From contig MNUP01000049.1 in assembly GCA_001871075.1 (NCBI GenBank), positions 1 to 20,558 on the forward strand: DNA of 20,558 nt, read 5' to 3'. The notes under the pieces were generated by a model, which had not been told where the DNA came from, searched no databases, and worked only from the letters and a program-made list of their open reading frames with translations. Source of the DNA: Candidatus Desantisbacteria bacterium CG1_02_49_89. GTDB taxonomy: Bacteria; Desantisbacteria; UBA1551. Within the stretch, counting starts at the first letter, position 1. The number at the start of each line of letters is the position of its first letter. Positions 1,336 through 19,593 of the stretch are shown piece after piece. Position numbers and translations under genes: made by a program.

Positions 1336-1404
1336 ATCAGGGCTGAAGCCCTGAGTTACGCCTCTGTGTCTCCGTGCCGTGCCCGCCAATCTTCAAGGCG
1401 TGGT
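1336..1404. repeat. Composite repeat: CAGGGCT hairpin plus CACGGA array with nested CCCGCC hairpin
   Basis: A hairpin (TCAGGGCTGAAGCCCTGA) is followed by a minus-strand copy of the CCACGGAGGCACGGAG repeat family (1362-1377). That copy is interrupted at 1378-1404 by an element with core CCCGCCAATCTTCAAGGCG. The same composite, in the other orientation, lies inside the rhamnosidase gene at 18262-18313. Confidence 0.7.
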
Positions 1405-1423
1405 CTCTGTGGGTAATTTTTCT

Positions 1424-2421: not shown

Positions 2422-2428
2422 AGGATTA

Positions 2429-2493
2429 ACCACGGAGGCACGGAGGCACAGAGAATTCTTCGGCTTTTACAAATGACAAATGACTAATGACTG
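2429..2493 (+). repeat. Tandem arrays: 8-nt GGCACGGA x3, then 7-nt AAATGAC x3
   Basis: Positions 2429-2452 hold ACCACGGA, GGCACGGA and GGCACAGA. Positions 2471-2491 hold AAATGAC, AAATGAC and TAATGAC. The linker CTTCGGCTTTTAC between them recurs at 8343-8355 before an array with one unit fewer. Confidence 0.85.
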
Positions 2494-7029: not shown

Positions 7030-7064
7030 GTTAAAGGTGAAAAGTTGAAGGTTAAAGGTTGAAA
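7030..7064 (+). repeat. 7-nt tandem array (GTTAAAG x5) that contains the start codon of the next gene
   Basis: GTTAAAG, GTGAAAA, GTTGAAG, GTTAAAG and GTTGAAA. The TTG start at 7059-7061 lies in the last unit and GAAGG at 7047-7051 can act as ribosome binding site, so the array itself carries the initiation signals. Confidence 0.85.
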
Positions 7065-8255
7065 ACTATACTGCTTACTATATTTTTAATTGGGGTGGGT
7101 TTAAATACCGGAGTTACAGCGGAAGGAGCAAAATTGGAGCAAAAGACAGAGGAGTTTTTTCCTATAGGGGTGTGGTTTGAGGGAGCTCCGGGACCGGCTG
7201 AATATCCTGCTGACAAGGCAGGCGCGAAGAAATATTATGACCGCTGTTTCGCAGACCTTGCCGCTCACGGGTTTAACTGCGTTGCTGTGCCGAACTGCCC
7301 TGAATCTTTGTGGCAGACGCTCCTGGAGTCAGCGCAGGAGAACAAAATAAAAGTCATTCTCGAGGTCAGACCGCTTGTGGAACTTATCTGCCGGGACAAA
7401 CCCTTGAAAGAAACGGAAGTTTACAAGACCGTGAAAAGAGTTGTTGATAAGATAGGCAATTACTCTTCCCTTCTGCGGTACCAGGTCAGGGATGAACCCC
7501 CTCCTGAGCAGGTCCAAAACTGGCTTGTGGTCAGGAACGCGCTCGAAGAGATCGACCCGTCCCGCCCCGCGTTCTCCTGTTTCTGCAACCCGGATTCTCT
7601 GAAGGCCGCGACTGACGCCGCTAAATTCTCCGAAACATGTTTTGATATCTACCCGCATTACGCGAAAGTGCCTGCGCAGACCCTGGGTAATTTCATAGAA
7701 TTGCTTTATAAATTCAAAAGGGCGTCCAGGGATAATGCGATGTGGGCGGTGCTGCAGTCCTTTGCCAAGCCTGAAGCGTGGCGGTATCCTTCGCCTGAGG
7801 AACTGCGAGCAGTGACATATTTGTCTATTGCGGCAGGAGCAAAAGGTATTTTCTATTTCCTTTACCAGACAATGCCGAAGCATTCAGAAGTGCTTGACGG
7901 GCTTATTAACGTTGACGGCAGCCCAAGGCCATTATATTCCACGGCTGAAACGCTCGCGCGCGAGCTCGGAAAGCTTGCCCCGCTCTTGATGTCTCTGAAG
8001 CCTGCGGAACAGACGGCTGAAATTTCCGGGCCTGCCCGCGCAGGCAGTTTTAAGGACCCGAATGGCAATCCTGTTTTGATAGTGGCAAGCGCGCGGCCCG
8101 GTGAGGGTGTGACCGTGACCGTGAGCGTGACGACGCTTGAAACAGGAAGCTGGAAGGACGCGCTGACCGGCGAGGTATTTTCCGCCAAGAACGGAGAACT
8201 CGCGATCCCGCTCGCTCCCGGCGCCGGCCGAGTCCTCAAAAGCACAAAAGATTAA
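7059..8255 (+). CDS. Secreted TIM-barrel glycoside hydrolase-like protein
   Basis: A 398-residue protein with a clear signal peptide (Met-Lys then a hydrophobic core to about residue 19, ending GVTA before EGAK). The start is TTG 7059; a later start would remove the signal peptide. The mature part reads as a GH-A-like TIM barrel: PIGVWFEG on strand 1, YQVRDEPPP with Asp145-Glu146 at the strand-4 end where the acid/base of such hydrolases sits, and AAGAKGIFYFLYQ near the last strand. A small beta domain follows (about 320-398, ending in APGAGRVLKSTKD). I cannot assign a GH family or substrate. It is one of only two proteins here with a secretion or membrane signal in the metabolic block, so it may act on extracytoplasmic glycans. 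The TAA stop overlaps the first base of the following tandem array. Confidence 0.7.
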   Translation: MKTILLTIFLIGVGLNTGVTAEGAKLEQKTEEFFPIGVWFEGAPGPAEYPADKAGAKKYYDRCFADLAAHGFNCVAVPNCPESLWQTLLESAQENKIKVILEVRPLVELICRDKPLKETEVYKTVKRVVDKIGNYSSLLRYQVRDEPPPEQVQNWLVVRNALEEIDPSRPAFSCFCNPDSLKAATDAAKFSETCFDIYPHYAKVPAQTLGNFIELLYKFKRASRDNAMWAVLQSFAKPEAWRYPSPEELRAVTYLSIAAGAKGIFYFLYQTMPKHSEVLDGLINVDGSPRPLYSTAETLARELGKLAPLLMSLKPAEQTAEISGPARAGSFKDPNGNPVLIVASARPGEGVTVTVSVTTLETGSWKDALTGEVFSAKNGELAIPLAPGAGRVLKSTKD

Positions 8256-8410
8256 CCACGGAGGCACGGAGACACAGAGGAATATTTGGCTCATATTAAA
8301 AACTTACCACGGAAGCGCGGAAAGACGGAAACACGGAGAATTCTTCGGCTTTTACAAATGACTAATGACTGTTTTTTTAACCACGGATTAGCACGGATTT
8401 CCACGGATAA
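8255..8410 (+). repeat. Four successive tandem arrays (8-, 8-, 7- and 10-nt periods)
   Basis: 8255-8278: ACCACGGA, GGCACGGA, GACACAGA. 8306-8337: ACCACGGA, AGCGCGGA, AAGACGGA, AACACGGA. 8356-8369: AAATGAC, TAATGAC. 8381-8410: CCACGGATTA, GCACGGATTT, CCACGGATAA. These fill the first part of the 538-bp gap 8256-8793. Confidence 0.9.
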
Positions 8411-10830: not shown

Positions 10831-10931
10831 TTTCGTGCTTTCGTCCGTAGCGCCATCCGCTCAGCTCTGGCGCGCAGGCCCCTGCGTTGAGCTGCGCAGC
10901 AGCTGCAGGGGGCACTTTCGTGCTTTCGTGG
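10831..10931 (+). repeat. 8-nt TTTCGTGC array split by the two-hairpin element
   Basis: TTTCGTGC, TTTCGTCC at 10831-10846 and TTTCGTGC, TTTCGTGG at 10916-10931, separated by the element at 10845-10913. An unsplit array of the same units is at 15952-15986. Confidence 0.8.
10845..10913 (+). repeat. Two-hairpin element, copy 2 (69 bp)
   Basis: CCGTAG left end. Hairpin 1 is GCGCCA/TGGCGC with a 12-nt loop. Hairpin 2 has outer CCCCTGC/GCAGGGG and inner AGCTGC-GCA-GCAGCT. The stems differ from copy 3 by paired changes. Confidence 0.85.
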
Positions 10932-10940
10932 AAATCCTTT

Positions 10941-12955: not shown

Positions 12956-13032
12956 GAATTTCCACGAAAGAAGCTTTTTACAGGGATCTTCGAAAGAGAT
13001 TTAAAAAACCAAGCTATAGATTCACAAGATTT

Positions 13033-13088
13033 CCACGAAATCACGAAAGTGTCACGAAATCACGAAAGAATAACCACGGAGGCACGGA
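13033..13088 (+). repeat. 8-nt array changing from TCACGAAA to CCACGGA units
   Basis: CCACGAAA, TCACGAAA, (GTG), TCACGAAA and TCACGAAA at 13033-13067, then ACCACGGA and GGCACGGA at 13073-13088. Confidence 0.85.
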
Positions 13089-13103
13089 GATTACAGTTTT
13101 AAC

Positions 13104-15927: not shown

Positions 15928-15951
15928 TTAATTCGTGGTTAAAGTGAATTT

Positions 15952-15986
15952 TTTCGTGCTTTCGTGGTACTTTCGTGCTTTCGTGG
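15952..15986 (+). repeat. 8-nt tandem array (TTTCGTGC/TTTCGTGG x4) before the rhamnosidase
   Basis: TTTCGTGC, TTTCGTGG, TAC, TTTCGTGC, TTTCGTGG. A GTG in this array is in frame with the rhamnosidase but is unlikely to be its start. Confidence 0.9.
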
Positions 15987-16010
15987 AAATCTTTAGTTGT
16001 GGGGGTTGAT

Positions 16011-18455
16011 TTGAAAGAGCCGTTTGACGGCAGCGCTTTCTGGGTATGGTCTTCCGAAGGCCACTGGGCGACCCAGGCAAGGCAGGACCCTTACCGCGTA
16101 AGGTATTTCCGAAGGGCCTTTGAGGTGAACGACCTGCCGGCAAAGCTCCTGATCCATGTTTCAGCCGATTCCAAATACATCCTTTACGTAAATTCGCAAT
16201 TCGTGTGCAGAGGGCCGGCAAAAGGCGATATCGCCCACCAGTTTTACGAGACCGCGGACGCAAGCAGGTTCCTTAAAAAAGGCAGGAACGTTATCGCGGC
16301 TCTGGTAAAGTATTACGGCGACTCTTTCCCGAATTACGGAATGGGCGGAGCTCCTGACTCTGTGATGTCAGAAGCCCCGGGCTTCATTGCCGACGCGGTT
16401 TTGAAATACGGCGGCAAAGAGATAAAGCTGCACACGGACTCAACCTGGAAAGTACTTGTTGATGAGGCGTACAACCACAAGGCCTGCGCAGGCAACTGCG
16501 TATATACCGGATACCGCGAAATATTCGATTCCCGCAAATATCTGCGAGGCTGGGAAAGCCCGGATTTTGACGATAGTTCCTGGGAGAACGCTGTCCAGAT
16601 ATGGAAAGGCGAAACTATTTCCCGCAGGAATGACAGCGCTGTGCCGCATATCCTTTATCCCAGGATCATACCTGCGCTTGAAGAGGATCCCCGCAATTTT
16701 AAAACGGTTTTCGGCTCTGACAACAGGACCTGCGCCGGATTTGAAAAGGTAATCGCGAATAACGGCGTTTTTGAAATACCCGCCGGATCGTCAGTTGACA
16801 TTTCCCTGGATGCCGGGGAGCTTGTTACCGGTTTTCCCCTGCTTGAGGTCTCGGGAGGCAGGGACTCGGAAATAAAACTTGTTTATTCAGAAGCCCTGTT
16901 TGGGAAAAAACCGGGCAAGATGCCTTTGCCATGGGAGGAAAAAGGCCCTAAGATAAACCGCAACGATACCGAAGGCGGCGCTGTCCAGGGTTTATGGGAC
17001 ACGTTCATCCCTGGCGGCGGCGAATCAACATACAAACCTTTCCAGTGGGCCGCGTTCAGGTTCATGCGCCTGATCGCGGACGTAAAAGACGAACCGCTTA
17101 TTATAAGGAAAATAGGGTATATATACCACGCGTTCCCTTTCAGGCAAACCGGTATATTTTCAAGCTCCGACCCCGGATTTTCCAGGATACTTGACGTAAG
17201 CACCCGCACCCAGCGGCTTTGCTCGCACGAAACATACGAGGACTGCCCTTATTACGAACAGCTCCAGTATGCGGGCGACACACAGGTGCAGGCTCTTGTT
17301 TCGTATTACCTTTTCAGCGACGCGCGGCTCGCAAGGCAGGCAATACGCCATTTTGACTGGTCGCGCAACAGCGAAGGCATAACTGCCAGCAGGTACCCGT
17401 CAAGGGTGGGGCAGATAATACCTTTCTGGAGCCTTCACTGGATAATGATGGCCTGCGAATACTGGAAATACACCGGCGATGCCGAAGAAGCGGAAAGAAT
17501 GGTTCCCGGTATTTTCGCGGTGCTGGGATGGTTTGAAAGGCATATAGGCAAAACCGGGCTTCTTGAAAAACTCCCCTACTGGTGCGTGGCTGACTGGTCT
17601 CCGGAATGGACAGACAAAAAGGATGGCGCGGGCGTTCCTCCCGGAACAAAAACAGGGGTCTCGGCCCTTATCAATTTCCAGTATATATACTGCCTTGAAA
17701 TATTCGCAGGGATGCTTGAAGCTCTGGGACAGCGGGACAAAGCCGTAAGCCTGAAAAAAACCGCATCCGCGCTGAAGAAAAAAAGCAAAGCTGTTTTCTG
17801 GGACAATAAAAAGGGATTGTTCAGGGATTCGCCGTCTTATCCCAGGGATTTCAGCCAGCTTGCCAATGCCTGGGCAGTGTTATGCGGAGCTGCCGATCCT
17901 GCCTGCTATAAAAAGATCGCTGCCGCGCTTGAAAACCCGGATGGCCTGTCAAGGGCTTCTTATTTCGGGCTTTTCTACTGTTTCAGGGCTCTTTCCAAGA
18001 TGAACGAATATGACAGGGTTTTCAATATGCTCGAACCCTGGAAGGAAATGCTTAAGCTGGGGCTTACGACCTGGAGCGAGGATATAGTCAGCCAGAGGAG
18101 CGACTGCCACGCCTGGTCAGGCGCGCCCGCATTTGAGTTTTTCAACGAGGTGCTGGGCATCAAGCCCTTACTGCCGGGTTTTAAAAAAGTGCTGATACAG
18201 CCCAGGCCAGGGCCGCTAGAGCACGCTGAAGGCAGGATCGTGATACCATCATTAAAAGATTACCACGGAGGCCACGCCTTAAAGATTGGCGGGCGCGGCA
18301 CGGAGGCACAGAGAAATACAATTGAGGTAAGCTGGTTTAAGAAAAACGGTTGTATGGTAATAAAAGGAAAGCTGCCTGCGGGAATTACAGGCTTGGTTTC
18401 TTTCAACGGCAAAAGCGTTAACGTTACCCAGTCTTTTAAAACCATATTTAAATGA
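16011..18455 (+). CDS. GH78 alpha-L-rhamnosidase-like protein
   Basis: About 814 residues. The order is an N-terminal beta-sandwich (FWVWSSEGHW, then FRRAFEV and LLIHVSADSKYILYVN), a linker beta region, an (alpha/alpha)6 barrel from about 370 to 720, and a C-terminal beta domain. The barrel carries the GH78 signature Asp411-Cys-Pro-Tyr-Tyr-Glu416 and Asp423 (E-x6-D), with the spacing +5 and +7 expected of the catalytic Asp/Glu/Asp set. Glu690 in TTWSEDI is a likely fourth acid. No signal peptide is seen, so it should cleave rhamnosides in the cytoplasm. The start is uncertain: I prefer TTG 16011 (GGGGG upstream, like the 11006 gene) over GTG 15999; GTG 15975 lies in a repeat. Odd: residues about 752-769 are encoded by an intergenic repeat inserted in frame. 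Confidence 0.87.
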   Translation: MKEPFDGSAFWVWSSEGHWATQARQDPYRVRYFRRAFEVNDLPAKLLIHVSADSKYILYVNSQFVCRGPAKGDIAHQFYETADASRFLKKGRNVIAALVKYYGDSFPNYGMGGAPDSVMSEAPGFIADAVLKYGGKEIKLHTDSTWKVLVDEAYNHKACAGNCVYTGYREIFDSRKYLRGWESPDFDDSSWENAVQIWKGETISRRNDSAVPHILYPRIIPALEEDPRNFKTVFGSDNRTCAGFEKVIANNGVFEIPAGSSVDISLDAGELVTGFPLLEVSGGRDSEIKLVYSEALFGKKPGKMPLPWEEKGPKINRNDTEGGAVQGLWDTFIPGGGESTYKPFQWAAFRFMRLIADVKDEPLIIRKIGYIYHAFPFRQTGIFSSSDPGFSRILDVSTRTQRLCSHETYEDCPYYEQLQYAGDTQVQALVSYYLFSDARLARQAIRHFDWSRNSEGITASRYPSRVGQIIPFWSLHWIMMACEYWKYTGDAEEAERMVPGIFAVLGWFERHIGKTGLLEKLPYWCVADWSPEWTDKKDGAGVPPGTKTGVSALINFQYIYCLEIFAGMLEALGQRDKAVSLKKTASALKKKSKAVFWDNKKGLFRDSPSYPRDFSQLANAWAVLCGAADPACYKKIAAALENPDGLSRASYFGLFYCFRALSKMNEYDRVFNMLEPWKEMLKLGLTTWSEDIVSQRSDCHAWSGAPAFEFFNEVLGIKPLLPGFKKVLIQPRPGPLEHAEGRIVIPSLKDYHGGHALKIGGRGTEAQRNTIEVSWFKKNGCMVIKGKLPAGITGLVSFNGKSVNVTQSFKTIFK
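18262..18313 (+). repeat. Intergenic composite repeat inserted in frame in the rhamnosidase gene
   Basis: Copy of the ACCACGGAGG...GGCACGGAGGCACAGAG family with the nested CCCGCC-type element (about 18270-18296, minus orientation). It encodes roughly residues 752-769 of the enzyme; family-like sequence continues on both sides (GRIVIPS before, TIEVSW after). Confidence 0.88.
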
Positions 18456-18470
18456 TCACCACAGAATTTA

Positions 18471-18516
18471 ACCACAGGTCAATACAGGTAAACACTGTTT
18501 TGAGTAACTCAAACCT
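18471..18516. repeat. 46-nt repeat, inverted copy of 5798-5843
   Basis: Its reverse complement differs from 5798-5843 at 2 of 46 positions. It leads into the AAACCT hairpin that holds a 30-nt insert. Confidence 0.92.
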
Positions 18517-18554
18517 TCTCGAAGACCCGCCAATCTTTAAGGAGGGAGGTTTGA
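18509..18554 (+). repeat. Hairpin TCAAACCT with a 30-nt insert in its apex
   Basis: Stem 18509-18516 / 18547-18554. The apex holds 18517-18546, which matches the insert at 5745-5774 at 26 of 30 positions. The same stem without insert is present at 5788-5807. Confidence 0.88.
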
Positions 18555-18556
18555 TA

Positions 18557-18631
18557 TCAGGGCTGAAGCCCTGAGTTACAATAAAATTCCATGCCGTTGA
18601 TTCATAACTCATAATTCATAACTCATAATTA
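18557..18631 (+). repeat. Left inverted repeat of the PfkB kinase gene
   Basis: 75 nt: the CAGGGCT hairpin, a spacer with CCGTTGATT, then 7-nt units CATAACT/CATAATT (four). Its reverse complement matches 19509-19593 apart from one 7-nt unit, a 17-nt insertion and four substitutions. Confidence 0.88.
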
Positions 18632-18648: not shown

Positions 18649-19524
18649 ATGAAGGCGATATCGTTCGGCGAAGTGCTTTGGGACATAATCGAGGGAAAGG
18701 AATACCTTGGCGGCGCCCCTTTTAACCTTGCCGCGCACCTCGCGAAGCTGGGATGCAGTTCCCGGATGATCTCAAGGGTCGGTGAGGACGAGCGCGGCAG
18801 CAAGGTGCTTGAAGAAATGAAACACCTTGGCGTGGACCCCTCTTTCATGCAGAAGGACAAGGACCACCCAACAGGCACGGTCAACGTCAGGCTTTCATTC
18901 GCAGGCGAGCCGGAGTTCACCATAAACAAGAACGCGGCTTATGATTTCATAGAGTTTGATAAAAAGCTTGAAGCCGGGATAAAAGAAGAAAAATTCGACG
19001 CATTCTGCTTCGGCACCCTTGCGCAGAGGAGCGATGTCACTAAAAAAACGCTTTACACCCTTCTGGGCAGCGTGAACTCAAACCTGTTCTTCTACGACGT
19101 GAACCTGCGCCAGAAATATTATTCCAAAGAGATCATTAATAAGTCCCTTTCAGTTTCAGGCATAGTGAAGCTTAACGATGACGAGGCAAAGGTCCTGCCT
19201 GAGATCGTTTTCAATAAGAAAATGGATGAAAAGGAATTCGCAACAGAGCTGTGCCGCGGATACCGGGTAAAGATCGTGTGCGTAACAAGGGGCGGGAACG
19301 GGTGCGCTGTATATTCGGGCGGTGAATTCAGGGAGATCCCGGGCATAAAGGTGAAGGTCATAGACACGGTCGGCTCAGGTGACGCTTTCAGCGCTGGTTT
19401 CCTTTTCAAGCACTGCTCAGGCAAAGACCCGTTTGAAGCCGCGGAATTCGCCAACAGGCTGGGCGCGTTCGTCGCCTCAAAGCGCGGCGCGATACCGGAC
19501 TACGACCTTAATTATGAATTATGA
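18649..19524 (+). CDS. PfkB-family carbohydrate kinase (fructokinase-like)
   Basis: A 291-residue ribokinase/PfkB-family sugar kinase. The N-terminal family motif region is FGEVLWDIIEG with YLGGAPFNLAAHLAKLG (Gly21-Gly22, Asn26), a pattern common in fructokinases. The C-terminal motif DTVGSGDAFSAGF carries the catalytic base Asp245 and the Gly242-Ser-Gly anion hole. Central NLRQKYYSKE and KLNDDEAKVL also fit fructokinases. It would phosphorylate a released or isomerised ketose with ATP in the cytoplasm; fructose is the best guess. Start ATG 18649 follows AGCGGAGCAGCG. The gene is enclosed by long inverted repeats (18557-18631 and 19509-19593), and the last codons and the TGA stop lie in the right-hand repeat, so the C-terminal LNYEL is repeat-derived. 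Length is normal for the family. Confidence 0.9.
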   Translation: MKAISFGEVLWDIIEGKEYLGGAPFNLAAHLAKLGCSSRMISRVGEDERGSKVLEEMKHLGVDPSFMQKDKDHPTGTVNVRLSFAGEPEFTINKNAAYDFIEFDKKLEAGIKEEKFDAFCFGTLAQRSDVTKKTLYTLLGSVNSNLFFYDVNLRQKYYSKEIINKSLSVSGIVKLNDDEAKVLPEIVFNKKMDEKEFATELCRGYRVKIVCVTRGGNGCAVYSGGEFREIPGIKVKVIDTVGSGDAFSAGFLFKHCSGKDPFEAAEFANRLGAFVASKRGAIPDYDLNYEL

Positions 19525-19593
19525 GTTATGCCCCTCGGGGCATTATGAATCAACGGCAAGGATATTTATTGTAACTCAGGGCTTTAGCCCTGA
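19509..19593 (-). repeat. Right inverted repeat of the PfkB kinase gene
   Basis: Inverse of 18557-18631 with one 7-nt unit fewer and a 17-nt insertion (19531-19547) that forms the hairpin ATGCCCC/GGGGCAT. Contains the kinase stop codon. Confidence 0.88.

Follow-up and report, generated by a model that had tools for sequence, protein, structure and literature searches.

The window, the whole stretch of 20,558 nucleotides analysed here from Candidatus Desantisbacteria bacterium CG1_02_49_89, is contig C123 of one MAG, whose 2.48-Mb genome lies in 150 contigs and is 93.5% complete. Among the genomes used for comparison, G001 belongs to the same order and the remaining sampled genomes share the domain only. 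The gene of interest and the copies of the repeat that surround it in the window are as follows.

15975..18455, + strand: GH78 alpha-L-rhamnosidase-like gene of 826 amino acids, host of the insertion (ORF, Pfam, fold match).
18255..18317, + strand: 63-bp composite repeat, in frame, encoding KDYHGGHALKIGGRGTEAQRN (four other composites, family-consensus ends, absent in 78 homologues).
18273..18299, + strand: 27-nt inner segment CACGCCTTAAAGATTGGCGGGCGCGGC of the composite (composite compared with the simple-family consensus).
1359..1421, - strand: intergenic sister composite (C123 match 1362-1421, 88% over 60 nt, E 8.3e-15).
2422..2457, + strand: simple 36-bp copy directly after the stop of a URO-D-like ORF (1468-2421).
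8248..8283, + strand: simple 36-bp copy; the TAA in its leader (8253-8255) terminates the ORF at 7059-8255.
13066..13090, + strand: simple copy, shortened on its right side, intergenic.
18504..18548, - strand: separate repeat just 3' of the GH78 gene, with the same CCTTAAAGATTGGCGGG core in opposite orientation.

The GH78 catalytic, N-terminal and C-terminal rhamnosidase domains are all present in the 826-residue product (Pfam PF17389, E 1.1e-29; PF08531, E 4e-12; and PF17390; all above the cut-off), and a fold search with a model of the protein returned GH78 crystal structures as its best matches, with 2okx at the top. Residues D423, E428 and D435 correspond in the alignment to D567, E572 and D579 of 2okx and, together with E702, are invariant across the 58 sequences of the family; we take these four to be the catalytic acidic residues of GH78. 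As judged from its predicted domains, its fold and its conserved acidic residues, the host protein is GH78 alpha-L-rhamnosidase-like. Its start codon is uncertain because a different repeat, TTTCGTGCTTTCGTGGAAATC at 15948-15993, extends over the start of the ORF as annotated, so that the true start may lie slightly downstream of GTG 15975 or the first codons may be those of the repeat itself; the TTTCGTGCTTTCGTGGAAATC repeat has a further copy at 10911-10939 and an inverted copy at 13026-13071. Downstream of the gene, an inverted repeat pair (51 nt, 92%; 18557-18607 and 19543-19593) flanks a sugar-kinase-like ORF at 18649-19524.

The sequence at 18255-18317, AAAGATTACCACGGAGGCCACGCCTTAAAGATTGGCGGGCGCGGCACGGAGGCACAGAGAAAT, is the CCACGGAGG composite with a nested CGCC...GGCG core that the initial annotation had described, and it lies open in the GH78 frame as claimed there. 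Comparison with the rest of the genome places this composite in a family of array repeats, 75 copies of which, five of them composites and the majority in a simple 36-bp form, we aligned on the motif CCAC. The unit is sharply bounded at positions -8 and +27 relative to CCAC, giving 36 nt with the consensus AAAAATAACCACGGAGGCACGGAGACACAGAGAAAT, and the composite form is this simple unit plus the 27-nt inner segment (also given as CACGCCTTAAAGATTGGCGGGCACGGC), so that 63 = 36 + 27. A 78-nt query run against the organism's own genome recovered four other composites (C101:3189-3245, C86:14309-14365, C123:1362-1421 and C107:12557-12618) at 87-93% identity and E values from 2.5e-18 to 1.6e-14; the DNA match of the GH78 copy to them spans 57-62 nt, and none of the four falls within a called gene. 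The core of the inner segment, CGCCTTAAAGATTGGCGGGC, has about 30 near-matches genome-wide, as compared to zero for a reversed control, and often lies within another repeat, as at 18504-18548. The exact array pattern is nearly limited to this genome among the genomes sampled, with 37 matches here and 3 in 97 others. Similar CACAGAG arrays exist in other environmental genomes.

Several searches for further attributes of the element came back empty: the composite core has no match in viral contigs, the window contains no Rfam family, and the papers listed in a literature search on the CCACGGAGG repeat itself were all unrelated. No signal of target-site duplication was seen over the 75 copies, and the two ends of the consensus, AAAAATAACC and GAGAAAT, do not pair as inverted repeats. 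The hairpin of the lone element is unexceptional in stability when compared with shuffled sequences (z -0.35 as DNA and -1.28 as RNA); the element folds no better than shuffles, and the hairpin as a structural driver was dropped.

A search with a three-sequence alignment gave 80 homologous proteins from Verrucomicrobia, Phycisphaerae, Acidobacteria, Bacteroidota and Firmicutes, two of which end before the region of the insert, leaving 78 for comparison. The distance from the column of P743 to the column of W787 is 24 residues in 76 of the 78, 31 residues in the other two and 45 residues in the window protein. The net gain of the protein is thus 21 residues or 63 nt, equal to the length of the repeat as set independently by the family consensus. 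Counting codons from GTG 15975, the insert comprises residues 761-781 and the element begins at a codon boundary; at the junction the window protein reads ...IPSLK[19]NTIEVSW where two homologues from whole genomes have ...IPTLK-GDISVRW, the exact edges being uncertain by 1-2 residues. The 46 residues that follow the insert score 21.9 bits against the homologue profile, compared to a maximum of 6.7 bits in 2000 shuffles, and the C-terminal beta domain of GH78 truly resumes after the insert. With the Pfam domains upstream, this bears out the earlier description of GH78-like sequence on both sides. The initial annotation had proposed in advance an alignment with GH78 homologues as a check, and that alignment shows 78 of them to be without the 21-residue insert. 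Its central proposal, that an intergenic repeat had become part of the rhamnosidase, is supported by these homologues and by a gain equal to the length of the element; its figure of 18 residues (752-769) has to be corrected to 21 (761-781). Because the nearest homologues are about 42% identical to the window protein, with no close empty-site relative among them, the choice between insertion and ancestral presence is made by parsimony, which favours insertion.

We consider it highly probable that the GH78 gene received, at a turn of the C-terminal domain, a copy of a repeat with a 36-bp unit, in its 63-bp composite form. A multi-copy repeat in a short-contig MAG does invite the suspicion of an assembly artefact, as assemblers misjoin at repeats, and two molecules joined through the repeat, or a misplaced copy, would give a chimeric gene. 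The flanks, however, are of the same domain, the same protein family and the same frame, with collinearity down to single residues; for a random misjoin to give this, a second GH78 gene would have had to be joined at precisely this loop, and we regard an artefact as highly improbable. Ordinary variation of the loop with a chance likeness to the repeat would draw on the slight length variation among homologues, two of which are longer by 7 residues, but it has to face a DNA match of 57-62 nt at 87-93% identity (E down to 2.5e-18) with intergenic copies, and its probability is negligible. Chance similarity as such was ruled out by this DNA-level match.

In an AlphaFold model built with 58 sequences (mean pLDDT 89.4), the insert lies between two confidently modelled strands, 750-756 and 782-790, and residues 764-774 fall below a pLDDT of 50. 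The model supports an insert that forms an exposed, probably disordered turn between the two beta strands, in keeping with the surface loop predicted earlier. The two longer homologues (L102 and L113) have seven residues of unrelated sequence inserted in this C-terminal hairpin, which suggests that the loop is tolerant of insertions. The intact reading frame and these longer loops at the same site could also be read as signs that the insert was recruited and alters the enzyme in its substrate binding, its stability or its contacts with partners. The inserted peptide, however, is in essence what the repeat consensus encodes and bears no mark of adaptation, and its predicted structure is disordered; we judge recruitment to be very unlikely.

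How the gene stayed open can be read from the frame of the element. Each of its forms (36 and 63 bp) has a length divisible by three, and translation starting at its first base meets no stop in 65 of the 75 copies, so that a copy landing in element phase would add an extra 21-residue loop (for the composite) and leave the gene open. The initial annotation had proposed instead that the loss of one A relative to a related context with a TAA stop produced read-through. The TAA is real, lying at 8253-8255 where it ends the ORF at 7059-8255, and the fuller form of this argument, in which the gene was first broken by a 64-nt copy with a TAA stop and a later deletion of a single A restored the frame, can appeal to a left-anchored comparison with 8241-8260 and to TAA being the commonest leader. 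That comparison (AAAAGATTACC against AAAAGATTAACC) was made from the left, which is the wrong end of the repeat as an anchor. When anchored on CCAC, its own register, the GH78 copy has family-normal ends and the normal 63 nt, and the triplet ahead of CC is TAA in 31 of the 75 copies, AAA in 15, TCA in 15 and TTA, as here, in 8. The usual leader placed in the GH78 phase (AAA AAT AAC CAC) is likewise open. As the CCAC-anchored copy is of normal length, TTA is a natural variant and the usual leader would be open too, no repair step is required; the claim of a lost A is not supported, and a history of breakage and repair appears very unlikely.

A second copy may also be translated. On contig C45 (L194, 2800-5800), a URO-D-like ORF runs through a simple copy at about 1534-1569 of L194, as ...YEEKINHGDTEAQRDAQRKTD..., in the same element frame as the GH78 copy, before continuing as an apparently membrane-bound tail of some 200 residues. 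The URO-D-like paralogues in the same genome, with open frames mostly of about 330-400 codons, are without this tail. No convincing homologue of the tail was found in 59 genomes, for which reason we treat the ORF as a putative fusion. With at least 22 URO-D-like matches and 10 Y1_Tnp genes, the 2.5-Mb genome has many of both for its size.

The remaining copies are mostly intergenic and lie at the 3' ends of genes. For the 65 copies with both neighbours called, and with gene calls that are plain ORFs of at least 100 codons so that the counts are approximate, CCAC lies within 1 base of the upstream stop in 9, as compared to 0.65 expected from random placement in the gap, and within 8 bases in 18, as compared to 2.9. 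All nine of the closest copies have the stop codon of the upstream ORF inside the repeat leader. Examples of gene-end copies are those at 8248-8255 of the window and at L043, L044, L068, L006 and L067.

We propose that the composite element was copied into the GH78 gene between two beta strands and that, having landed in an open phase, it would have been translated as an extra loop of 21 residues with the gene unbroken. Its persistence could be accounted for by the tolerant loop, a length that is a multiple of three, the open frame and the intact catalytic residues, and the insert would then be a neutral passenger without a new function.

Among known systems, REP sequences are short extragenic repeats near the 3' ends of genes that are mobilised by Y1 transposases (RAYT). 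The repeat described here resembles them in being short, extragenic and situated by gene 3' ends, in a genome with 10 Y1_Tnp genes. Unlike REP sequences, it has no clear hairpin and is absent from the Y1_Tnp loci inspected: no copy lies within 1.5 kb of the six best of the 10 Y1_Tnp genes.

In-frame insertion of peptides by short bacterial repeats is best documented for two other groups. The Rickettsia palindromic elements (RPEs) are about 150 bp long, each encodes a conserved peptide, and nearly half lie inside ORFs (PMC10969869), while the enterobacterial RU elements (RU-1, RU-2 and RU-3) are MITE-like, 103-168 bp long, carry open frames and occur within annotated genes too (PMC2759123). Like the RPEs, the present repeat is dispersed, short and open in frame, occurs in frame in unrelated genes (here two ORFs in the same element frame), and has been inserted into a protein-coding gene without a counterpart in homologues. 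It differs from them in its length of 36 or 63 bp, in having no clear palindrome, in its unrelated sequence (the RPEs being compared by description), in the distant and poorly sampled lineage that carries it, and in frequency, with 1-2 of about 75 copies in genes as opposed to nearly half of the RPEs (PMC10969869). It shares with the RU elements an intergenic habit with open frames and occasional copies within genes, but it is shorter and neither terminal inverted repeats nor target-site duplications were seen. Since its size and the palindrome or MITE features differ, we do not assign the repeat to either group; by analogy, it would work as RPE and RU elements do, with an unrelated and shorter sequence. 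Rather more tentatively, and with considerable doubt, it might be seen as a protein-compatible selfish element, an unrelated counterpart of the RPEs, of 36 or 63 bp, that is open in its first frame, is found in at least two ORFs in the same frame and supplies stops at the ends of genes. The lineage is distant and little sampled, the insertion is measured to the codon (63 nt for 21 residues), and the case makes it possible to test cleanly whether inserts of this kind are tolerated passengers, as we suppose for this one, or change the enzymes that carry them.
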